Positions 48,385 to 64,000 of a DNA stretch of 64,000 nucleotides are shown here, piece after piece. Source of the stretch: Panorpa germanica. Taxonomy: Eukaryota; Arthropoda; Insecta; Mecoptera; Panorpidae. The stretch is from NCBI GenBank assembly GCA_963678705.1, contig OY783209.1:3658001-3722000 (forward strand). The letters run 5' to 3'. Position numbers and translations under genes: made by a program. The notes beneath the pieces are model-generated. The model was not told the DNA's origin, ran no database searches, and saw only the letters and a program-made list of their open reading frames with translations. Positions within the stretch are counted from its first letter, which is position 1. Each line of letters starts with the position of its first letter.

Positions 48385-48650
48385 AAATATCAAATGTTTC
48401 GAGCCGTGTTTCGTGACTCTATAGAATTTTTAACAATAGTATAACTGGGGATTTTATTGTGTCGTATTTGCATGTATGTATTTAAATACTTTTGAATAGT
48501 ATTTGTGCACATCTCTGCTCATGATGGCACCATCAAAAGCATGCAACGTAATTGCCCTACGACATAGAAACACAGTCGCCCAAAACGTGCTCAAAACCAG
48601 TTTGAAATCAGTTTTCTTTCATTCGTGCCGTGCGCGTTCTCTCACTAACA
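48385..48650 (+). repeat. Repeat family G, uninterrupted copy
   Basis: Matches both sides of 25010-25575 and lacks the 331-bp insert there, so it preserves the pre-insertion arrangement. It carries an extra segment of about 25-30 bp near 48540-48570. A 109-codon plus-strand frame (48503-48832) starts inside it; I see no domain in that frame and treat it as chance. Confidence 0.65.
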
Positions 48651-48832
48651 ACACAGTTGCATTCTCATTCGGTTCGGGCAGATTCGAGGCTAAGGTTTGC
48701 ATTCAGTTGACTCGTGTGCGGAGGGCCTTACTTTGTTGGAGTCGTTGCACTACATACACTACAATGAAAGTAGCTATAACTAATATACCTATGCGTAGAC
48801 TGCGTATGGACATAATGCATGCTTATAACTGA

Positions 48833-52547: not shown

Positions 52548-52578
52548 TGACTGCTAATTTTTTAGACATATTGACAAT
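52548..52578 (-). pseudogene. Start-codon remnant of a GT8 glycosyltransferase gene
   Basis: On the minus strand this reads ATTGTCAATATGTCTAAAAA then ATTAGCAGTC, identical to the translation start of the genes at 59326 and 61878 (peptide MSKKLAV). All coding sequence beyond codon 7 is gone to the left. The matching upstream flank resumes at 53213, on the far side of a 633-bp family B element. The peptide type (KKLAV rather than the KKIAF or RKIAF of the other minus-strand copies) shows this copy belonged to the gene 3/4 subgroup. Confidence 0.8.
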
Positions 52579-53211
52579 GGGCTTGTGTCCTCATTTTTTA
52601 GTGGTCGATTTTTCAATTGTTTATTGAAATTGATGTTAATAAATGTGTATTGGTGTGTCTATTTTATTAAATATCTAAATATTGACGAAGATATAGCAAT
52701 TAAAAGTTATAAATGTAGTTTTAGCGCTAGAAATAGTCGGCCATATTTGTATGACGTGAAATGCATTTTAACGTCAGTTATTTGTTGAGTAGGGCAGTGC
52801 TGTGGTAATGTTTTGTAGCTGTTGGTAGTCAAATAATCAAGTCAAATCAAGGAATAATAAGTTTTTATTTTATTTAACCCTGCTAAGGTAGACATAATAT
52901 TGAAATTTGATTGTTCCCCGAAATAGCTGTAAATAATATTTGATATTTTGATATATAAATACATATAGCAGAGATTTATGAGCTGTAAGGTTGGTAACCT
53001 TACACAAGAATTGTGATGTCACATGCACTTGGAATGTGTACAACGTTGAATCCCTTTAATAACTAAAGAGACAAAATGGCTTTTTTAATTGTTAATATCT
53101 CTTAACATATAAGGAGTTATTAAAAAATAATTGAACATTTGAGGTTCTAGTAACCCACATTATCAATATATAGTACACTGTTATAGAAATTAAGACATAG
53201 GACACAATCCC
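52579..53211 (+). mobile_element. Repeat family B, full-length 633-bp element
   Basis: Terminal inverted repeats GGGCTTGTGTCCT (left) and GGGATTGTGTCCT (right, reverse complement). The insertion site is known from paralogous flanks: intact copies read GACAATTTGGACTACG, and here GACAAT is followed by the element and then ATTTGGACTACG. The target duplication is therefore at most 2 bp (AT), or none if the terminal T/A belongs to the element. No transposase frame, so it is non-autonomous. This copy defines the ends of the partial copies at 6955, 12305, 20400, 34485, 35415 and 47990. Confidence 0.9.
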
Positions 53212-53212
53212 A

Positions 53213-54290
53213 TTTGGACTACGCGCGCTACTGCGATTGTTTACTGGATTCAAATGTTTTACCGCGCAGGCCTCCTAAAGTGATGAGATTTCTTTTAAAA
53301 CAATTATTTTCTGATTTTTAAGAAATTTTTAATAATTAGGTGCGGTCTGAAGACAATTCTGTTTGCCATTAGGAAATCGCATCAATTTTGATAAATGAGT
53401 TATTGCTAATTAATAATCAATTAGTTTATCAATTATAAATGTTAATGTTAATTAGAGGCTATCTGTCTGTCCTTTATTTTAATAAACAACATTTGATTTA
53501 TACACGGCCAGTGGGCTCTGTTTGAGATAAATACTTTTTATGGATACAATTTAATCTTATTTTAATCTACCTAAATAGTTAATTTTTTTGGAATTTATGT
53601 AATAACATTATTTTGTTATAAACTTATCGGTTATGTTTGTTTTTAATTAATAAATAACGTGCATATTGATTAAAATCGTATTTTTTGATTTGATAAGATG
53701 AGCTACTGCGAGTACTATAATCTTGCAGTATCTTCTAGTTTTATTAAGTATGGTTCTCCCGTTAACAGAGATAGTTGGGTCGTAGACTCTAAGATTAGTT
53801 TATACTTAGGTTCAGATTTAAAGAAATAATATTATTCTATGACTGACAAAAGAAATATCTAACCAAAAAATAATCAAATATACCAACTGTACAACAAACA
53901 ACTCAACAAAGCGCACCATTAACATATTTCACTTTTTGCCAGTTATTAAAATATATACCAATTTATAAAAAATGATTATTTATGTCTAAACGTATCAGCT
54001 ACATAAATGCTACATTTTATACGTTGGCTTATAAAACCGTTTTTACTAGTGAACCTTGTCACATATTTAAATCCTGCTCATCACATTGCACTTTCTTCAG
54101 TGACATAGCTGGAGCCTTAGCCTGGTGATTTTTGAGTTTGTTTAAATTTATTTTCAAATCTTAATTCTTATAAAAATGGATTATGAAAAAATATTAAAGA
54201 GAGAAATTAAAAGTCAACAAACTTGCAACGAAAAATTATTTAGGTTAATATTCATTTTGACTTACATGAATTCTAATTAGGTTTTTTAAA
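53213..54290. repeat. Duplicated spacer: 5' flank of the remnant joined to 3' flank of gene 1
   Basis: Collinear with 55427-56400 at high identity and, inverted, with 58672-59325. The left part is upstream sequence of the minus-strand remnant (TTTGGACTACGCGCGCTACT, ACCGCGCAGGCCTCCTAAAG). The right part is downstream sequence of gene 1 (TCTTCAGTGACATAGCTGGA, TAAAAATGGATTATGAAAAA). An extra 83 bp at 53484-53566 is absent from the other copies and is bracketed by TTATTTTAAT direct repeats. Confidence 0.85.
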
Positions 54291-55412
54291 TTAATCAATC
54301 GATTTGTTGTAGTAACATAGGGTCCCCATGTCCCTTCCCCTCGCAAGGTTGTTTAAAATACCAGTTTGATTACCATCAAATAATGTAAGGTTTACCATCT
54401 CAAAAAAAATCCACGTGAAATTAACATTTAAGATTCGATGAAATCTCCCTTCATTTCCATGAAGAACAATTACTCCATCTTCTTCCTCTCGCTGTTCTGA
54501 TGCGTTAGCTCCTAGCAGGTTTTGCAACTGAGCAGCAGTTCAAGCAGTTACAATGTCGGTGCAAAAAATTGAACTTACAAGGAAGAACTAACACTCTCTC
54601 TGGATGATAGTAAAAGATGATATTGATAACATTTTGATCACCTTTTCCTTTCTGAGATTTTTAATGGAAAGAACACGATTAGTCCAGTTAAATGATCGCA
54701 TTCTAGTTAAATTCATTAACATTACTCCAGAATTTAGGCCGCAGTTGTGATCGGAATATTTTACACTAAAGTTGTACAATCCCTCTGTAGCATTCTCCAA
54801 GACCATGCTAGCTAAATGGTGACTGTTGAAGCTTGATAATTTAGACCACAACAATTTAGGAGGTGCCAGGAATAACGTATCACTGTCTACATATAATACG
54901 GTATCGATATTTGGTAATAAATCAGGTAAAAATAACCTCAATGATGCACAGCGTTTGAAAAGGTTTCTCCAATAATTTGAAGGAAAGTTTGGTTCAAGTA
55001 TCGTGAAATGAAATGTCTGATTTCCTTTTGTTTGCCAAGAAAACAATGTGTGAGAAAACGTTGGAAAATTAGATTTTTCCGTAAACACTATAAAGTGCAG
55101 CACAGAATTTGGAGAATACAAAATGGCGGACTTGATTGATGTTAGTGACTCTTCCGTTCTTTGATAACATCCGACAGACACGATGTAAATGACGTCACGT
55201 TGACTGGACACGAGGTATTCTTTAGGTAGAGACGTTTTGATATCCATTAAAGTTTTTCTTTCATTCTCGATGCGGATTGTCAAATTCTTTACTTTTACAT
55301 TTTGTAGTGATTGTTGGTGTCGTCCGTGGTGAAATTTTACCCAAATGAATAAAGCACATAATAAAATAAAAGCGATTACCGTAAATTTTATAAATGCTAT
55401 TTTTTTAGACAT
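54291..55412 (-). pseudogene. Broken GXYLT-like GT8 glycosyltransferase (gene 1)
   Basis: Minus-strand copy of the array's glycosyltransferase. From ATG at 55412 the frame runs 274 codons and covers the N-terminal membrane anchor (about residues 10-28), stem, the start of the GT8 domain, the DSD metal/UDP-sugar motif (VDSDTLFLAPP) and LNSGVMLMN. Relative to genes 2-4, a net 10-bp deletion near 54641 shifts the frame and gives an early TAG near 54588. A 1-bp insertion near 54514 (CCTGCTAGG against CCTGCAGG) puts the remaining C-terminus back in frame, seen as a separate 78-codon frame. The shifted segment would have held the D-Q-x-I-I-N motif and the first cysteines of the C-terminal region. 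It has most likely lost activity. High identity to gene 2 shows the damage is recent. Correction by assembly is possible, so sequencing error should be excluded. Confidence 0.85.
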
Positions 55413-55426
55413 ATTAACAATTTGGA

Positions 55427-56400
55427 ATACGCGTGCTACTGCGATTGTTTACTGGATTCAAATGTTTTACCGCGCAGGCCTCCTAAAGTGATGAGATTTC
55501 TTTTAAAACAATTATTTTCTGATTTTTAATAATTAGGTGCGATCTGAAGACAATTCTGTTTGCCATTAAGAAATCGCATCAATTTTGATAAATGAGTTAT
55601 TGCTAATTAATAATCAATTAGTTTATCAATTATTATTGTTAATGTTAATTAGAGGCTATCTGTCTGTCGTTTATTTTAATCTACATAAATAGTTAATTTT
55701 TATGGAATTTATGTAATAACATTATTTTGTTATAAACTTATGTTTGTTTTTAATTAATAACTAACGTGCATATTAATTAAAATCGTATTTTTTGATTTGA
55801 TAAAATTAATGAGCTACTGCGAGTACTATAATCTTGCAGTACCTTCTAGTTTTATTAAGTATGGTGCTCCCGTTAACAAGGATAGTTGGGTCGTAGACTC
55901 TAAGATTAGTTTATACATAGGTTCAGGTTTAAAGAAATAAATTTATTCTATGACTGACAAAAGAAATATCTAACCAAAAAATATCAAATATACCAACTGT
56001 ACAACAAACAACTCAACAAAGCGTACCATTAACATATTTCACTTTTTGCCAGTTATTAAAATATATACCAATTTATAAAAAATGATTATTTATGTCTAAA
56101 CGTATCAGCTACATAAATGCTACATTTTATACGTTGGCTTATAAAACCGTTTTTACTAGTGAACCTTGTCACATATTTAAATCCTGTTGTCACATTTTAC
56201 TTTCTTCAGTGACATAGCTGGAGCCTTAGCCTGGTGATTTTTGAGTTTGTTTAAATTTATTTTCAAAACTTATTTTTTATAAAAATGGATTATGAAAAAA
56301 TATTAAAGAGAGAAATTAAAAGTCAACAAACTTGCACCGGAAATTTTATTTAAGTTAATGTTCATTTCGACTTACAAGTATTCTAATTATGTTTTTTAAA
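55427..56400. repeat. Duplicated spacer: 5' flank of gene 1 joined to 3' flank of gene 2
   Basis: About 970 bp nearly identical to 53213-54290 except for small indels and absence of the 83-bp insert. Its presence on both sides of gene 1 shows the duplicated unit is roughly 2.1-2.2 kb and contains gene plus spacer, so the copies arose by DNA duplication rather than by independent retroposition. Confidence 0.85.
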
Positions 56401-57528
56401 TCATTCAATCCATTTGTTGTAGTAACATAGGGTTCCCATGTCCCGCCCCCTCGCAAGGTTGTTTAAAATACCAGTTTGATTACCATCAAATAATGTAAGG
56501 TTTACCATCTCGGAAAAAATCCACGTAAAATTAACATTTAAGATTCGATGAAATCTCCCTTCATTTCCATGAAGAAGGACTACTCCTCCATCTTCTTCCT
56601 CTCGCTGTTCTGATGCGTTAGCTCCTGCAGGTTTGGCAACTGAGCTGCAGTTCAAGCAGTTACAATGTCGGGGCAGAAAATTAAACTTACAAGGAAGAAC
56701 TATAACTTTCTCTGGGTGATAGTAAAAGATGATATTGATAATGTCTTGATCACTGTTGATCCGTTTTTTCGGCATGAATTTATTAGTGAAAATAACACGA
56801 TCAGTCCAGTTAAATGATCGCATTCTAGTTAAATTCATTAACATTACTCCAGCATTTAGCACGGTGTTAATCTTATTTCCATTAACTTTGTAGTATCTCT
56901 TTTCTGTGTATGCCACGACCATGCCAGCTAAATGGTAACTGTTAAAGTTTGATAATTTAGACCACAACAATTTAGGAGGTGCCAGGAATATCGTATCACT
57001 GTCTACATACAAAACGGTATCGATATTTGGTAATAAATCAGGCAAAAATAGTCTCAATGATGAACAGCGTTTGAAAAGGTCTCTCCAGTAATTTGAAGGA
57101 AAGTTTGGTTCGAGTATCGTGAAATAAAATGTCTGATTTCCTTTTGTTTGCCAAGAAAACAATGTGTGAGAAAACGTTGGAAAATTAGACTTTTCTGTAA
57201 ACACTATAAAGTGCAGCACAGAATTTGGAGAATACAAAATGGCGGACTTGATTGATGTTAGTGACTCTTCCGTACTTTTATAACATCCGACGGACACGAT
57301 GTAAATGACGTCACGTTGACTGGCTATGAGGTATTCTTTAGGTAGAGACTTTTTGATATCCATTAAAGTTTTTTTTTCATTCTCGATGCGGAGTGTCAAA
57401 TTCTTTACTTTTACATTTTGTAATGATTGTCGGTGTCGTACCTGGTGAAGTTGTACCCAAATAAATAAAGCACATAATAAAATAAAAGCGATTACCGTAA
57501 ATTTTATAAATGCTATTTTTCTAGACAT
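56401..57528 (-). CDS. GXYLT-like GT8 glycosyltransferase (gene 2)
   Basis: An intact single-exon gene of 375 codons. The product is a type II Golgi-type membrane protein: short basic cytosolic tail (MSRK), membrane segment about residues 8-27, stem to about 72, then a GT8 catalytic domain. Visible motifs are DVIYIVSVGCY (73-83), TVLYVDSDTIFL (171-182) with the DSD metal/UDP-sugar site at 176-178, LNAGVMLMNLTRMR, DQDIINIIF, CKFNFLPRHCNC and LLHGNEGRFH (319-328). This motif order is that of glucoside xylosyltransferases (GXYLT1/2, Drosophila shams), which add xylose from UDP-xylose to O-glucose on EGF repeats. Several N-x-S/T sequons suit a lumenal enzyme. It differs from the other copies at residues 204-223 (VVAYTEKRYYKVNGNKINTV) and has LNAG for LNSG. 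The donor is inferred from family resemblance; another xylosyl or glucosyl acceptor is possible. Confidence 0.85.
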   Translation of the reverse strand: MSRKIAFIKFTVIAFILLCALFIWVQLHQVRHRQSLQNVKVKNLTLRIENEKKTLMDIKKSLPKEYLIASQRDVIYIVSVGCYKSTEESLTSIKSAILYSPNSVLHFIVFTEKSNFPTFSHTLFSWQTKGNQTFYFTILEPNFPSNYWRDLFKRCSSLRLFLPDLLPNIDTVLYVDSDTIFLAPPKLLWSKLSNFNSYHLAGMVVAYTEKRYYKVNGNKINTVLNAGVMLMNLTRMRSFNWTDRVIFTNKFMPKKRINSDQDIINIIFYYHPEKVIVLPCKFNFLPRHCNCLNCSSVAKPAGANASEQREEEDGGVVLLHGNEGRFHRILNVNFTWIFSEMVNLTLFDGNQTGILNNLARGRDMGTLCYYNKWIE

Positions 57529-58671
57529 ATTGAAAATTTGGACTACGCGCGTTACTGATTCAAATGTTTTATCGCACAGGCTTCCGAAAGAATTGTGATT
57601 TTGTTTTTAAAACAATTATTTCCAGAATTTTTAGAAGCAATTTTTAATTATGTGCAATCTTTCAATAGTTGGTCGATTGTATAAGAAAACATTACCCCCC
57701 CCCCCCCGCTCCTTCCTTTTCTCATTTTACACTTATTAACGTTACGTTTTTTCAATAGCTGTGTTTTATTATGTAGCACATTTGAATATTACTTTATTGT
57801 ATTATAATTTTAATAATGAAATAAATACACCATTTTCTATTAATGCATTATATCTTACAACGTCTATATTGTTCTCAATTGTTCTCAATTGTTTTTAGAA
57901 ATTTATCAAAGTATACATATAAAATATATATGATATATGACATATCAAAGTATGTCATTAATCACAAACACTACATATTACAAACCTTGGTTCACAACTG
58001 TAGTTTAACTGACTATTGGAGAATCGGCTTGTAATATATTAACCGCGTTGCAGAAGAGTTTAATATACAGAGATTATATATATAATACGGGTAGACATTC
58101 ATCAATATCTTTAAGAGACATACGTCTGTAATGGATGGCATCATAATGACATGACGACGCCGACGTCGGGGTCAACAGATGTCTTAATTGACACTGACGT
58201 CCATTACCGACAGGTTATTGTTTTAATTTAATTAACTTAGATAATAGTGCCATGCTTTTATGATGCTAATACACTGTGTTCATATCAATTAATTCTATAT
58301 GCATCGCCATTGATGTGGAAATAACACCTCAAGTGAATTAATAATATTGATTGATTGCAAATATATACTGTTATTAGTACAGACCAGAGATGTGCTACTT
58401 TTTTGCATACTCTTATATATATGAGGGTAGTTGAGAAGCGTTTTCTCAAATTTTTTAATTCCTTCCAAATAATAGCAAATCAAGACTCTCAAAATATGGT
58501 TTGTTTCAGTGATGACCTCTATGTTAGACCAAATTTTTTACTTTTTTAATTTTGGAAAGTGGAAATAGTCGCAGGGGAGTTAAATCTGGAGAATATGCTG
58601 GACGGGTGACTAAACGCACAACCGCAATCGCGGCTTTGCTGCTAGCTGCTCCCAATGTACGGATAAATATA
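57529..58671. other. Junction region between the two opposed halves of the array
   Basis: The first 120 bp are a diverged version of the common upstream flank of gene 2 (ACTACGCGCGTTACTG near 57542). Homology then ends. It holds a poly-C tract (57695-57707), an AT run near 58080, and a small inverted repeat at 58123-58213 (CTGTAATGGA with CCATTACCGACAG). Open frames at 57843-58034, 58295-58492 and 58355-58549 have no domains. This is where the orientation of the repeats switches. Confidence 0.6.
57695..57707. repeat. Poly-C tract
   Basis: Thirteen consecutive C residues, one of three such tracts in the window. Confidence 0.85.
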
Positions 58672-59325
58672 ATAATGGTGCGCTTTGTTGAGTTGTTTGT
58701 TATAGAGTTGGTATAATTGTTTATTTTTTGGTTAGATATTTCTTTCGTCAGTCATAGAATAAATGTATTTCTTTAAACCTGAACCTAAGTATAAACTAAT
58801 GTTAGAGTCTACGACCCAACTATCTCTGTTAACGGCAGAACCATACTTAATAAAACTAGAAGATACTGCAAGATTATAGTACTCGCAGTATCTCATTTAA
58901 TCTTATCAAATCAAAAAATACGATTTTAATCAATATGCACGTTATTTATTAATTAAAAACAAACATAACCGATAAGTTCATAACAAAATAATGTTATTAC
59001 ATAAATTGCAAAAAAATTAACTATTTAGGTAGATTAAAATAAACGACATACAGATAGCCTCTAATTAACATTAACATTAATAATTGATAAACTAATTGAT
59101 TATTAATCACTTATCAATAATTAGTAATAACTCATTTATCAAAATTGATGCGAGTTCCTAAAGGCAGACAGTATCGTCTCCCGACCGCATCTAATTATTA
59201 AAAATTTCTTAAAAATCAGGCAATAATTGTTTTAAAAGAAATCTCATTATTTTAGGAGGCCTGCGCGGTAAAACATTTGAATCCAGTGAACAATCGCAGT
59301 AGCGCGCGTAGTCCAAATTGTCAAT
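58672..59325 (+). promoter_or_regulatory. Conserved upstream region of gene 3
   Basis: About 650 bp shared, inverted, with 53213-53900 and 55427-56020. Two parts stand out. A 9-bp stem, AGATACTGC (58861-58869) with GCAGTATCT (58885-58893), is nearly preserved in the other copies. The last 75 bp (AGGCCTGCGCGGTAAAACAT, ATCCAGTGAACAATCGCAGT, AGCGCGCGTAGTCC) are the best conserved and are identical upstream of gene 4. The promoter and 5' leader probably lie there; CCAGTG and GCAGTA resemble arthropod initiators, but no TATA box is clear. The start site is inferred, not seen. Confidence 0.45.
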
Positions 59326-60465
59326 ATGTCTAAAAAATTAGCAGTCACTTCTATAAAATTTTCGATAATAGCTTTTATTATAATTATATTATGTGCTTTA
59401 TCCATTTGGGTAATACTTCACCAGGGACGACACGGGCAATCATTACAAAATGTAAAAGTCAAGAATTTGACACTCCGCATCAAGAATGACAGAAAAACTT
59501 TAATGGATATCAAAAAGTCTCTACCTAAAGAATACCTCATAGCCAGTCAACGTGACGTCATTTACATCGTGTCCGTCGGATGTTATAAAAGTACGGAAGA
59601 GTCACTAACATCAATCAAATCCGCCATTTTGTATTCTCCAAATTCTGTGCTGCACTTTATAGTGTTTACGGAAAAGTCTAATTTTCCAACGTTTTTTCAA
59701 ATATTGTCTTCTTGGCAAACGAAAGGAAATCAGACATTTTATTTCACGCTACTTGAACCAAAATTCCCTTCAAGTTACTGGAGCAACCTTTTCAAACGCT
59801 GTGCATCATTGAGACTATTTTTGCCTGATTTATTACCAAATATCGATACCGTTTTGTATGTAGACAGTGATACGATATTCCTGGCACCTCCTAAATTGTT
59901 GTGGTCTAAATTATCAAACTTTAACAGTTACCATTTAGTCACCATGGTCTTGGAGAATGCTACAGAGGGATTCTATAACTTCAGTGTAGGCAATGAACCA
60001 AACAACCGCGGGCTAAATTCTGGAGTAATGTTAATGAATTTAACTAGGATGAGATCATTTAACTGGACTGATCATGCCATTTCCACTAAACCGCATAAAA
60101 TGAAAAAACGGATCCACAGTGATCAAGAAATTATCAATATTATCTTTTACTATCATCCAGAGAGAGTTTTAGTTCTTCCTTGTAAGTTTAATTTTGTGCA
60201 CCGACATTGTAACTGCTTCAACTGCTGCTCAGTTGCAAAACCTGCAGGAGCTAATGCATCAGAACAGCGAGAGGAAGAAGATGGAGTAATTGTTCTTCAT
60301 GGTTGTGGAAGGAGGTTTCATCGAATCTTAAATGTTAATTTCAAGTGGATTTTTTCCGAGATGGTAAAACTTACATTATTTGATGGTGATCAAAGTGGTA
60401 TTTTAAAAAAACTTGCGAGGGGAAGGGACATGGGGACCCTATGTTACTACAACAAATCGATTTAA
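59326..60465 (+). CDS. GXYLT-like GT8 glycosyltransferase (gene 3)
   Basis: An intact single-exon gene of 379 codons for a predicted type II Golgi membrane glycosyltransferase. Cytosolic tail 1-12, membrane segment about 10-31 (IIAFIIIILCALSIWVIL), stem to about 76, GT8 domain from DVIYIVSVGCY (77-87). The DSD motif lies at 180-182, LNSGVMLMNLTRMR at 230-243, DQEIINIIF at 266-274, the cysteine cluster C286, C295, C297, C300, C301, and the final HG motif at 325-326 as HGCGRRFH instead of HGNEGRFH. Sequons occur at N47, N135, N211, N218, N238, N246 and N310. By family resemblance it would move xylose from UDP-xylose to O-linked glucose on EGF repeats. The ATG is chosen because the leader is identical in gene 4 and the remnant. 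AATAAA signals follow at 60503-60508 and 60519-60524. It reads divergently from gene 2. Residues 1-120 are identical to gene 4. Confidence 0.87.
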   Translation: MSKKLAVTSIKFSIIAFIIIILCALSIWVILHQGRHGQSLQNVKVKNLTLRIKNDRKTLMDIKKSLPKEYLIASQRDVIYIVSVGCYKSTEESLTSIKSAILYSPNSVLHFIVFTEKSNFPTFFQILSSWQTKGNQTFYFTLLEPKFPSSYWSNLFKRCASLRLFLPDLLPNIDTVLYVDSDTIFLAPPKLLWSKLSNFNSYHLVTMVLENATEGFYNFSVGNEPNNRGLNSGVMLMNLTRMRSFNWTDHAISTKPHKMKKRIHSDQEIINIIFYYHPERVLVLPCKFNFVHRHCNCFNCCSVAKPAGANASEQREEEDGVIVLHGCGRRFHRILNVNFKWIFSEMVKLTLFDGDQSGILKKLARGRDMGTLCYYNKSI

Positions 60466-60633
60466 AAATTTAAAAAGCTTAATTAGAATGCATGTAACTC
60501 GAAATAAAAAATAACCTAAATAAATTTTCGTTGCAAGTTTGCTGACTTTTAATTTCTCAATAATATTTTTTCTAATCTATTTTTATAAAAATTAAGGTTT
60601 GAAAATAAATTTAAGCATACTCAAAAATCACCA
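60466..60633. repeat. Shared 3' flank of gene 3
   Basis: Collinear with 63024-63190 and, inverted, with the right ends of 53213-54290 and 55427-56400. It includes AATAAA and TAAATTTTCGTTGCAAGTTT. Homology stops at AAAATCACCAG, where a family H repeat begins. Confidence 0.75.
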
Positions 60634-61130
60634 GTTTGAGGTTCTAAAACGGAAACGGCTCCGGCGATGTTTTTGAAAATTTCCTATTTCGTAGAGATAA
60701 AAATTCTAAGACTTTTGTCGTCCTTTGGATTTTTCCTTGAATTTCCTGGAAACCCGTAATTTTGGAAAAACAGGAAAAAAAATAATCACTTTTTCCTGTA
60801 TATCTTTTAATTCGTAACAGATAGAAAATTGAAATTTTGCATGTGTACTATGCTATTTAATGCGAACATATTTCAAAATTTATAAATTTATAAAAGGGGC
60901 GCGGGGAAATTTGGGGGGTCCGGCAGGAAACTTTGAGAAAGCTCAAATTTTTGATTGTGAAATAATTAAATGTCATATTAAGAAAAAAAAATTCAAAATT
61001 AAAAAATTGTATTTGGGGGCGGGTTTATTAGCGAGAGTAAAAATTGTGCTGGAAAGTTGAAATTTTGTACATGGGCTAACTTTAGTACCTAATTTACAAA
61101 TCGAAAAAAAATTCCCAAATTTTGAAAAAA
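60634..61130 (+). repeat. Interspersed repeat family H, copy 2
   Basis: Related to 37436-37735 in inverse orientation: AACCCGTAATTTTGG, GCATGTGTACTATGCTATTT, AATGCGAACATATTTC, AAAAGGGGCGCGGGGAAATT, GTCCGGCAGGAAACTTTGAG and TTTGGGGGCGGG. It begins exactly where the duplicated gene flank stops, so it marks an insertion or rearrangement breakpoint between genes 3 and 4. The plus-strand frame at 60860-61060 lies within it and is not a gene. Confidence 0.65.
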
Positions 61131-61729
61131 AAGTTGGTCAACTTACGAATAAATTGAAAATTTTTTATATTTTGTTGAAAAAAATAATTTCTTTTAGTCA
61201 GTCTGTATAAAAAATTATTTGTTGTTATATGTAAAATTAATATAGAACGAGTTAAATATTTCAATTTAAAAATGGAATTAAAATTTGAAATGAATATCAA
61301 TTCACACACCAAAAACAGTCGTCACTTGCGAATATAAATCGAATGTAGTATATATTAAAATAAACAACCATAATGCTGGTGTTACTAGGAAATGAAACAA
61401 ATTACGTATAACACGCACTCTAAATTTAATTATTAAAATCAGAACTATCGCTATTTTACTATACGAAGAGAGCAACTCATTACTGTTGCAGTCGCTTGTT
61501 TCCAGATAGCTATTCAACATTAACAAACATTTCTAATCGTTATTCCAAATGAAAATAACGGCCGATGATCAATTATTACTACCTGAAAATCTTATGCTAA
61601 TTATAATAATAATAGATTTACAGGTAACAGAATTTATTCTAAAATAACAATACACTCAGAAAATCTGAAAATTTATGTACCACATTTTTCAAAATTATTG
61701 TCATTCATTTACAACAGAAACATAATTGT
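61131..61729. other. Spacer between genes 3 and 4, unrecognised
   Basis: A+T-rich, with no homology that I see to the gene flanks and no domain-bearing frame. It replaces the distal part of the upstream flank that gene 3 keeps. Confidence 0.5.
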
Positions 61730-61877
61730 CTTCAGACCGAATCTAATTATTAAAAGTTTCTTAAAAATCAGGCAATAATTGTTTTAAAAGAAATCTCATT
61801 ATTTTAGGAGGCCTGCGCGGTAAAACATTTGAATCCAGTGAACAATCGCAGTAGCGCGCGTAGTCCAAATTGTCAAT
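61730..61877 (+). promoter_or_regulatory. Retained proximal upstream region of gene 4
   Basis: Only about 148 bp of the common flank is present before the ATG, starting at CTTCAGACCG. It is almost identical to 59175-59325, including GGAGGCCTGCGCGGTAAAAC and AATCGCAGTAGCGCGCGTAG. If gene 4 is transcribed, its core promoter or leader must lie in this short block or in the new sequence upstream. Confidence 0.4.
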
Positions 61878-63023
61878 ATGTCTAAAAAATTAGCAGTCAC
61901 TTCTATAAAATTTTCGATAATAGCTTTTATTATAATTATATTATGTGCTTTATCCATTTGGGTAATACTTCACCAGGGACGACACGGGCAATCATTACAA
62001 AATGTAAAAGTCAAGAATTTGACACTCCGCATCAAGAATGACAGAAAAACTTTAATGGATATCAAAAAGTCTCTACCTAAAGAATACCTCATAGCCAGTC
62101 AACGTGACGTCATTTACATCGTGTCCGTCGGATGTTATAAAAGTACGGAAGAGTCACTAACATCAATCAAGTCCGCCATTTTGTATTCTCCAAATTCTGT
62201 GCTGCACTTTATAGTGTTTACAGAAAAGTCTAATTTTCAAACGTTTTCTAACACAATCTCTTCTTGGCAAACGAAAGGAAATCAGACATTTTATTTCACG
62301 ATACTCGAACCAAAATTCCCTTCTAATTACTGGAGAAACCTTTTCAAACGCTGTGCATCATTGAGGTTATTTTTGCCTGATTTATTACCAAATATTGATA
62401 CCGTATTATATGTGGACAGTGATACGATATTCCTGGCACCTCCTAAATTGTTGTGGTCTAAATTATCAAGCTTCAACAGTCACCATTTAGCTGGCTTGGT
62501 CTTGGAGAATGCTACTAAGGGATTCTACAATTTCAGTGAAGCCAATACACGAAACAACCGCGGGTTAAATTCTGGAGTAATGTTAATGAATTTAACTAGA
62601 ATGCGATCATTTAACTGGACTGATCGTGTTATTTCCACTAAAAAACTCAAAACGAAAATACGGATCAATAGTGATCAAGAAATTATCAATATCATCTTTT
62701 ACTATCATCCAGAGAGAGTTTTAGTTCTTCCTTGTAAGTTTCATTTTCAGCCCCGACATTGTAACTGCTTCAACTGCTGCTCAGTTGCAAAACCTGCAGG
62801 AGCTAACGCATCAGAACAGCGAGAGGAAGAAGATGGAGTAATTGTTATTCATGGATATGCAAGTAGTTTTCATCGAATCAACTTAGATGTTAATTTCACG
62901 TGGATTTTTGCCGAAATGGTGAAACTTTCATTATTTGATGGTGATCAAACTGGTATTTTAAAAAACCTTGCAAGGGCGCGGGACATGGGGACCCTATGTT
63001 ACTACAACAAATCGATTGATTAA
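61878..63023 (+). CDS. GXYLT-like GT8 glycosyltransferase (gene 4)
   Basis: An intact single-exon gene of 381 codons with the same layout as gene 3: tail, membrane segment about 10-31, stem, GT8 domain from residue 77, DSD at 180-182, LNSGVMLMNLTRMR at 230-243, DQEIINIIF at 266-274, cysteines at 286, 295, 297, 300 and 301, and the late histidine-glycine motif as HGYASSFH (325-332). Residues 1-120 are identical to gene 3; from 121 on the two differ at many positions, so the pair is a mosaic. One extra residue lies in HRINLDVNF, compared with HRILNVNF. Predicted role as for gene 3: Golgi xylosyl transfer from UDP-xylose to O-glucosylated EGF repeats. AATAAA follows at 63058-63063. Changes at 202-227 and in the HG motif lie in regions expected to contact acceptor or donor, so its specificity may differ. 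Confidence 0.87.
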   Translation: MSKKLAVTSIKFSIIAFIIIILCALSIWVILHQGRHGQSLQNVKVKNLTLRIKNDRKTLMDIKKSLPKEYLIASQRDVIYIVSVGCYKSTEESLTSIKSAILYSPNSVLHFIVFTEKSNFQTFSNTISSWQTKGNQTFYFTILEPKFPSNYWRNLFKRCASLRLFLPDLLPNIDTVLYVDSDTIFLAPPKLLWSKLSSFNSHHLAGLVLENATKGFYNFSEANTRNNRGLNSGVMLMNLTRMRSFNWTDRVISTKKLKTKIRINSDQEIINIIFYYHPERVLVLPCKFHFQPRHCNCFNCCSVAKPAGANASEQREEEDGVIVIHGYASSFHRINLDVNFTWIFAEMVKLSLFDGDQTGILKNLARARDMGTLCYYNKSID

Positions 63024-63262
63024 TTTATAAAGCTTAATTAGAATGCTTGTAAGTCGAAATAAAAAATAACCTAAATAAATTTTCGTTGCAAGTTTGCTGA
63101 CTTTTAATTTCTCAATAATATTTTTTCATAATCCATTTTTATAAAAATTTAGGTTTGAAAATAAATTTAAGCAAACTCAAAAATCACCAGGCTAAGGCTC
63201 CAGCTATGTCACTGAAGAATGTACAACGTGACAACAGGATTTAAAATTGTGACAAGGTTCAC
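63024..63262. repeat. Shared 3' flank of gene 4
   Basis: Matches the downstream flanks of the other copies, including AATAAATTTTCGTTGCAAGT, AAAATCACCAGGCTAAGGCT, CCAGCTATGTCACTGAAGAA and TGACAAGGTTCACTAG. It extends further into the common spacer than the gene 3 flank does. Confidence 0.75.
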
Positions 63263-63720
63263 TAGAAATTCTTTTTAAGATTCTGTAAAGAAAAATATTT
63301 CCAAATAAACTTTAGAGACATTATAGAAAAGCTACTAATATCCTGAGAAACAATAAGGTTGAAGACCTAAGCTAACCAATATACATAAACAATTTAAACT
63401 AAATGTAATTTTTTTTAACTCTTACAATTTTTTAGAACATATTCTAATCAGTAGGATAACTAGGGAATATTCTGGAGGAGCCATTTGTCTGGAGCATGTT
63501 AGTTATGCGAGTTGTGCAATAGTAAAACAGATATTCAATGATTAGATTTGTTTAAAAGGATTACCTTTTTGCAAGTAAGGATGGAAGATGAACTAATCCC
63601 TTTTTCTTCTAATTCTTGATTTAGAAAATACGGTCCTTTTACTCGGTTCACGTTAACGGGCACACTTGAAAAATTACAAAATCAGAGTACTAAGAATTAA
63701 TTTTGTACGGACCGTTTCAT
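63263..63720. other. Insertion within the common spacer downstream of gene 4
   Basis: About 455 bp with no match in the spacers at 53213-54290 and 55427-56400, where the sequence on its left (GGTTCACTAG) lies close to that on its right (CGTTT, then TATAAAATGTAGCATTTATG). No terminal repeats or coding frame were recognised. Confidence 0.55.
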
Positions 63721-64000
63721 AGGCCAGAGTATAAAATGTAGCATTTATGTAGCTGATACGTTTAGACATTAACAAATTTTTTTTATAAATTGGTATACAT
63801 TTTATATTATATTACTGCGAGGTCATCAGCTAGGTTATAACTCGTAAAAATTGAAATTTGTTAATTGTACGGTTTGTTTAGTTGTTAGTTATATAGTTGG
63901 TATATTTGATTATTTTTTGGTTAGATATTTCTTTTGTCAGTCATAGAATAAAATTATTTCTTTAAACCTGAACCTAAGTATAAACTAATCTTAGAGTCTA
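63721..64000 (+). repeat. Upstream-type spacer running off the right edge
   Basis: Resumes the common spacer: TGTAGCATTTATGTAGCTGA, TTGGTTAGATATTTCTTTTG, CAGTCATAGAATAAAATTAT and AAACCTGAACCTAAGTATAA. The same motifs lead into the start codon of gene 3 after about 515 bp, so another plus-strand copy or its remnant is expected beyond this window. Confidence 0.7.

Follow-up and report, generated by a model that had tools for sequence, protein, structure and literature searches.

According to the passages of PMC3675014 on which we draw here, Drosophila has a single close GXYLT homologue, shams (CG9996), which encodes a membrane-anchored glycosyltransferase with a DxD-like motif, and GXYLT tunes Notch by capping O-glucose. 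In this study, we analysed a window of 64,000 nucleotides from Panorpa germanica (chr6:3658001-3722000), in which a preliminary description had placed an inverted array of intronless GXYLT-like genes, and followed the family through the genome. Where the fly has one gene, we found at least 17 GXYLT-like open frames, eight of them intact copies in one chr6 array, which confirms the local expansion that had been proposed. We regard it as probable, with some room for doubt, that these copies form a lineage-specific tandem array of GXYLT-derived GT8 Golgi enzymes whose acceptor range is diversifying, "lineage-specific" being judged from the single fly gene. Among the open-licence PMC papers listed by our searches, none reports that GXYLT genes have expanded in an insect. 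What is new here is a tandem conversion family in an enzyme family where it was not expected, with exchange at the stem and at a loop adjacent to the predicted active site.

From the leader remnant at its left end to chr6 3734847, the whole array comprises eight intact copies (a1 to a8), one broken copy, one upstream-leader remnant and two coding fragments (Table 1). The loss of single copies is thus tolerated, as the broken gene, the fragments and the leader attest. Minus-strand copies lie on the left and plus-strand copies on the right, as the frames of the window had indicated, and the count of three intact genes and one broken gene in the window also stands; the supposed start-codon remnant, on the other hand, consists of a leader only and ends before the ATG. 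The range first given, 52548 to 64000, has to be revised at both ends, as its first ~660 bp are mostly dispersed repeat and not gene family, and five more intact copies (a4 to a8, all on the plus strand, chr6 3722606 to 3734847) and the two fragments follow beyond it. PF01501 (GT8) matched four of the five window pieces, namely a1, a2, a3 and the broken copy's 5′ frame (E 6.6e-12 to 5.7e-18; 46-66 bits versus a curated cut-off of 24.3); the fifth, which is the C-terminal part of that copy, gave no PF01501 match by itself.

Spacers of ~1 kb are shared between the copies, which therefore spread by DNA duplication, in agreement with the preliminary description. One repeat unit is 90.6% identical over 1,994 bp (chr6 3711557-3713527 versus 3713671-3715631), another gene-plus-spacer pair 91.7% over 2,123 bp, and several pairs retain 88-92% over ~2 kb or more of gene plus spacer; through most of the array, start-to-start distance is 2.1-2.7 kb. 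Just upstream of both a7 and a8 lies a coding fragment that was copied along with the gene (91% over 1,817 bp). Haplotype duplication or a misjoin in the assembly, a known risk with large inverted tandem arrays, left no sign that we could see. At the DNA level the array copies are 6-20% apart, unlike duplicated haplotypes, their proteins are 73-89% identical to each other with private indels, and the assembly has a quality value (QV) of 59.9 and 3.1% duplicated BUSCOs (PMC11464959); copy divergence and these quality figures rule out assembly duplication, and we consider an artefact of any such kind extremely improbable.

A protein search of the genome returned 22 matches, 12 on chr6, four on chr7, two on chr5 and one each on chr10, chr14, chr2 and C21, the chr6 rows including two for the broken copy and one for each coding fragment. 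Once the C21 row, both rows of the broken copy and the coding fragments are set aside, the count is 17 open frames, distributed over six chromosomes, and this is a lower bound. All 17 score higher with human GXYLT1 than with pieces of LARGE1 or XXYLT1, although the GXYLT1 yardstick is a provisional catalytic-region sequence and longer than those pieces, so that the bit scores are not strictly comparable. Within the scope of this human yardstick, the result supports the assignment to a GXYLT-like group over other GT8 subfamilies, and it rules out LARGE or XXYLT identity for the array. XXYLT1 (4wlg) resembles the array proteins as a GT8 xylosyltransferase with NSG and DQD motifs, but is a weaker match than GXYLT1 in every frame. 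By sequence, the best match among solved structures was the xylosyltransferase domain of LARGE1 (7ui6, 7zvj; 1.8e-19 with the family profile), followed by small GT8 proteins and XXYLT1, and no GXYLT chain was among the matches. LARGE1, however, is a two-domain polymerase, and the array is not LARGE because a separate LARGE orthologue lies on the X chromosome of the same genome. This is the C21 match (20873500-20882500, L020), spread over at least three pieces with 51-79% identity to the LARGE1 pieces.

Identity to this provisional human GXYLT1 sequence is 49% for the chr14 gene and 29-37% for the other 16 frames (33-36% for the array copies); array copies and chr14 gene share 33-38% of their protein sequence. 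The chr14 gene also has in common with human GXYLT1 a segment before the NSG motif, WYNRFARHPYYG, which we take to be a defining feature of the GXYLT family. That segment is missing from all eight array copies, setting them apart from human GXYLT1 and GXYLT2, and for this reason we term the array GXYLT-derived, not GXYLT. The chr14 gene is likely the shams orthologue, a judgement made by way of human GXYLT1. In a midpoint-rooted tree, which has no outside outgroup and moderately supported deeper forks, the eight array copies group together as a single clade (100/99). Its sister is the chr10 gene (99/96), and chr7 copies 3 and 4 branch off next (100/100). The chr7 copies constitute a second GXYLT-like cluster (9793549-9799543) of four older, more divergent minus-strand genes, adjoined by a single-frame trypsin-like protease (L013:2375-3328). 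A hydrophobic 19-mer (mean 2.0-3.2) occurs within the first 40 residues of 16 of the 17 frames, consistent with a predicted type II membrane topology; c5a, on chr5, has no anchor inside its frame, its anchor being in a putative separate exon.

Within the array, copies exchanged segments in the transmembrane (TM)/stem region, in a loop flanked by the DXD and NSG motifs (residues 207-231, in the numbering of a3 used throughout) and in residues 250-272. The eight intact genes have 140 informative sites with two states; incompatibility between neighbouring sites was 0.267, compared with 0.444 after shuffling (standard deviation 0.010), and none of 2000 permutations was as low; such an excess of compatibility between neighbours is a mark of recombination. 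Three segments carry conflicting groupings, at residues ~6-67 (a4, a5 and a6 apart), 207-233 (a1, a6, a7 and a8 apart) and 250-272 (a2 and a5 apart). An unsupervised scan that paired every 25-codon window with every possible split of two to four genes likewise ranked the second of these first, with a score of 0.302 and the same four genes split off; the best of 1000 shuffles scored 0.169 (0/1000).

The two alternative loops are far more divergent than the genes that carry them. Per base, the distance between a type-1 and a type-2 loop is 0.36-0.45, as opposed to 0-0.15 within types; outside the loop, the distance between those genes is 0.05-0.09 for residues 77-206 and 0.05-0.14 for residues 232-320. 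The loops of a1 and a6, on opposite strands and ~12 kb apart, are identical (0/69 bases), and their stems differ by 0.19; a2 and a3 are identical over their first 76 codons (0/228 bases). Gene conversion or unequal crossing-over between neighbouring copies accounts best for this cassette mosaic. Gene-plus-spacer units, inversions, relics and cassette exchange are features that the Panorpa array has in common with tandem multigene families in which gene conversion acts; it differs from them in belonging to a glycosyltransferase family with one copy in the fly, and in an exchange centred on stem and loop. The loop of the chr10 gene lies at 0.23-0.24 from type 1 and farther, at 0.38-0.43, from type 2. 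Type 2 therefore predates the chr6/chr10 split, was imported or evolves fast. The loops of the two coding fragments upstream of a7 and a8 (chr6 3730435-3730638 and 3732801-3733411) fit neither type.

The catalytic core is under purifying selection, the ratio of nonsynonymous to synonymous substitutions (dN/dS) being 0.31 in residues 77-206, at a mean pairwise value of 0.61 for the array overall. For the other regions the ratios are 0.96 in the TM/stem (residues 1-76), 0.69 in the loop, 0.63 in 232-249, 0.73 in 250-275, 0.55 in 276-320, 1.85 in 321-340 (20 codons, noisy) and 0.41 in 341-381. Compared with the chr10 gene and chr7 copies 3 and 4, the array genes give 0.25-0.60. Together with the core ratio, the gaps indicate that the copies are not decaying, as all ten coding gap intervals are multiples of three, versus one of 11 in the 150-bp flanks on either side. 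Were the copies instead drifting towards pseudogenes, their open frames would be left from recent duplication; the broken copy (one of nine at full length), the two coding fragments, the leader remnant and the overall dN/dS are in line with such a drift. In a neutral simulation that started from the consensus and placed the observed substitutions randomly, however, a gene stayed free of stops in only 1-8% of cases, and eight stop-free frames would jointly have a chance of ~1e-12, if the copies are treated as independent, which they are not. Furthermore, the four active-site residues discussed below are kept in all eight array copies. With the in-frame gaps and this simulation we rule out a pseudogene array, and hold such drift to be very unlikely. 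Positive selection in the loop was also considered and is not claimed here, dN and dS both being high; this marks the loop as an old or imported segment and does not prove such selection, and a two-codon gap may inflate both measures.

For the active site, LARGE1 is the most instructive comparison. Its two DXD aspartates and a histidine are metal ligands, and a glutamine is probably catalytic by comparison with XXYLT1, as set out in the sections of PMC9746966 used here. By alignment, the same set corresponds to D180, D182, H325 and Q267 of a3; 14 of the 17 frames retain the full set, all eight array genes among them. In the remaining three (c5a, c5b and c2) the DXD and histidine are altered, and in c2 the glutamine as well, which suggests that their predicted products are inactive pseudoenzymes kept as open frames. 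We infer that the array genes encode working Golgi glycosyltransferases with a diversified choice of acceptor. The lysine of an HG...K motif, present in the chr14 gene and in chr7 copies 1 and 2, is lost in register from the array. That loss, the missing WYNRFARHPYYG segment and the three altered frames elsewhere in the family would fit an array of catalytically altered or binding-only GT8 proteins that are not xylosyltransferases; with D180, D182, Q267 and H325 in every array copy and a core under constraint, we find this improbable.

For the array as a family of active enzymes we propose the following mechanism. Gene-plus-spacer units have multiplied by DNA duplication and inversion. Each gene is predicted to give a type II membrane enzyme of the Golgi, in which the metal-binding DXD and histidine and the catalytic glutamine would serve to transfer a sugar, probably xylose with UDP-xylose as its donor. 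The chr14 gene probably retains the shams role, xylosylation of O-glucose on Notch/EGF. Having lost WYNRFARHPYYG and carrying two loop types in its place, the array copies probably serve other acceptors, or further ones. In the alignments, on which the mapping was counted by hand, the exchanged loop falls on the stretch of LARGE1 around residues 282-286, which were not modelled in the crystal according to the passage of PMC9746966 concerned. A family of 17 or more GXYLT-like frames, of which 14 retain intact active-site residues, together with an array that swaps loops, suggests that the fold has been recruited beyond Notch. The natural swaps of type 1 and type 2 in near-identical backbones are moreover ready-made experiments on acceptor choice in GT8 enzymes.

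Several points weigh against this interpretation. The subfamily assignment depends on a provisional human GXYLT1 sequence, and with the array at just 33-36% identity to GXYLT1 and lacking its segment, donor and acceptor may both differ. The position of the chr14 gene is only moderately supported (84/87, 90/91) in a tree with three long branches and a midpoint root. The overall dN/dS could also mean partly relaxed constraint; in the loop, dS (0.46) is high as well as dN (0.32), and a bootstrap gave no support for dN exceeding dS there (13 of 100 resamples). Finally, the loop is positioned by sequence alignment, the structure predicted from three window proteins having a mean predicted local distance difference test score (pLDDT) of 32.6.

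Vertebrate GXYLT genes are multi-exon. In a1, a2 and a3, by contrast with these, the frame runs from the N-terminal hydrophobic anchor through the shared C-terminus uninterrupted by introns, as the preliminary description had it (all statements on introns made here cover coding regions). Its suggestion that a local retroposition had caused this state did not hold up, as the chr14 gene is a single frame of 381 aa from its own TM anchor to the C-terminus, and the chr7, chr10, chr2 and second chr5 copies are likewise single frames; intronlessness is therefore older than the array, and a recent local retroposition is rejected as its source. As to an intron-containing parent, the gene closest to GXYLT/shams, on chr14, is single-exon, and only c5a looks intron-bearing, with a pyrimidine-rich, splice-acceptor-like stretch at its start and a plausible anchor exon ~1.3 kb upstream, all judged by eye. 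LARGE in the same genome is spread over several pieces, as given above. A retroposed GXYLT transcript might still have landed on chr6 or chr10 and then been amplified by DNA duplication, given that all eight intact array copies are intronless and that homology between the chr10 gene and the array is transcript-like, covering the coding sequence, ~100 bp after the stop and an ~83-bp upstream block before it fades. Yet at a silent distance of 0.38-0.49 neutral flanks would fade regardless, the aligned chr10 and array flanks showed to the eye neither a poly-A tract nor a target-site duplication, and with nearest family members already in single frames a new event is not needed; we judge it unlikely. 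Inheritance of the intronless state from an older family member would be enough for the array, and an ancient retroposition may have preceded the whole family.

As a more speculative extension, which we rate as a long shot, the array could be a glycan-diversity locus, in which cassette exchange reshuffles the Golgi-targeting stem and a loop on the acceptor side and thereby changes which glycoproteins are xylosylated or otherwise capped. Panorpa males may offer a salivary secretion as a nuptial gift, and in some named species males offer prey only, as stated in passages of PMC3783485 that contain nothing on P. germanica itself. Our guess is that the male salivary gift is a candidate setting, with glycoprotein properties perhaps under sexual selection.

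Table 1. Features of the chr6 window and GXYLT-like frames with altered active sites. Positions are those of the window unless a chromosome is named.
Feature	Position	Strand	Remarks
Dispersed repeat	52576..53214	.	Outside the gene family; abuts and truncates the left-most leader remnant; copies at chr6 3748571, chr6 3753850, chr2, chr5 and chr7 (identity up to 94%)
Upstream-leader remnant of a further minus-strand copy	53212..53483	-	No coding sequence left; 93.4% over 272 bp to leader of broken copy; alignment stops ~10 bp short of expected ATG, at the edge of the dispersed repeat
Frame-broken copy	54294..55412	-	Long 5′ frame (stop-to-stop length 286 aa); frame shifts twice, with TGA and TAG along the way, then C-terminal frame resumes
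Intact gene a1, 375 aa	56401..57528	-	N-terminal TM anchor, GT8 domain, DSD, type-2 loop
Head-to-head spacer, inversion point	57529..59325	.	~1.8 kb start codon to start codon; inverted-repeat arms
Intact gene a2, 379 aa	59326..60465	+	Type-1 loop
Spacer a2-a3	60466..61877	.	Dispersed repeat inserted near 60790-61175
Intact gene a3, 381 aa	61878..63023	+	Type-1 loop; numbering reference for cassettes and residues
Loop cassette, codons 207-231 of a3, type 1	62496..62570	+	Between DXD (180-182) and NSG (231-233)
Spacer towards next copy	63024..64000	.	Array runs on past window
c5a, altered DXD/lost His	chr5 380853-381857		
c5b, altered DXD/lost His	chr5 783155-784366		
c2, altered DXD/lost His	chr2 25107205-25108359		

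In the window, nothing was returned from Rfam (gathering scores), by the tandem-repeat search (score >=200) or for tRNAs (bacterial settings), and of its seven other long frames the six that were scanned had no Pfam match at 0.01. From inspection of the shared leader by eye we claim no promoter motifs. Dispersed repeats accompany the array in several places. The one inserted between a2 and a3 (chr6 3718790-3719175) is an 80% match to L018. Another lies inverted within the array at chr6 3729202-3729550 and recurs on chr7 and at chr6 3706399-3706730 (window 48399-48730), ~4.5 kb to the left of the array. On chr2, a Mos1-type transposase N-terminal domain is found directly downstream of the GXYLT-like frame (L017:5572-6015).

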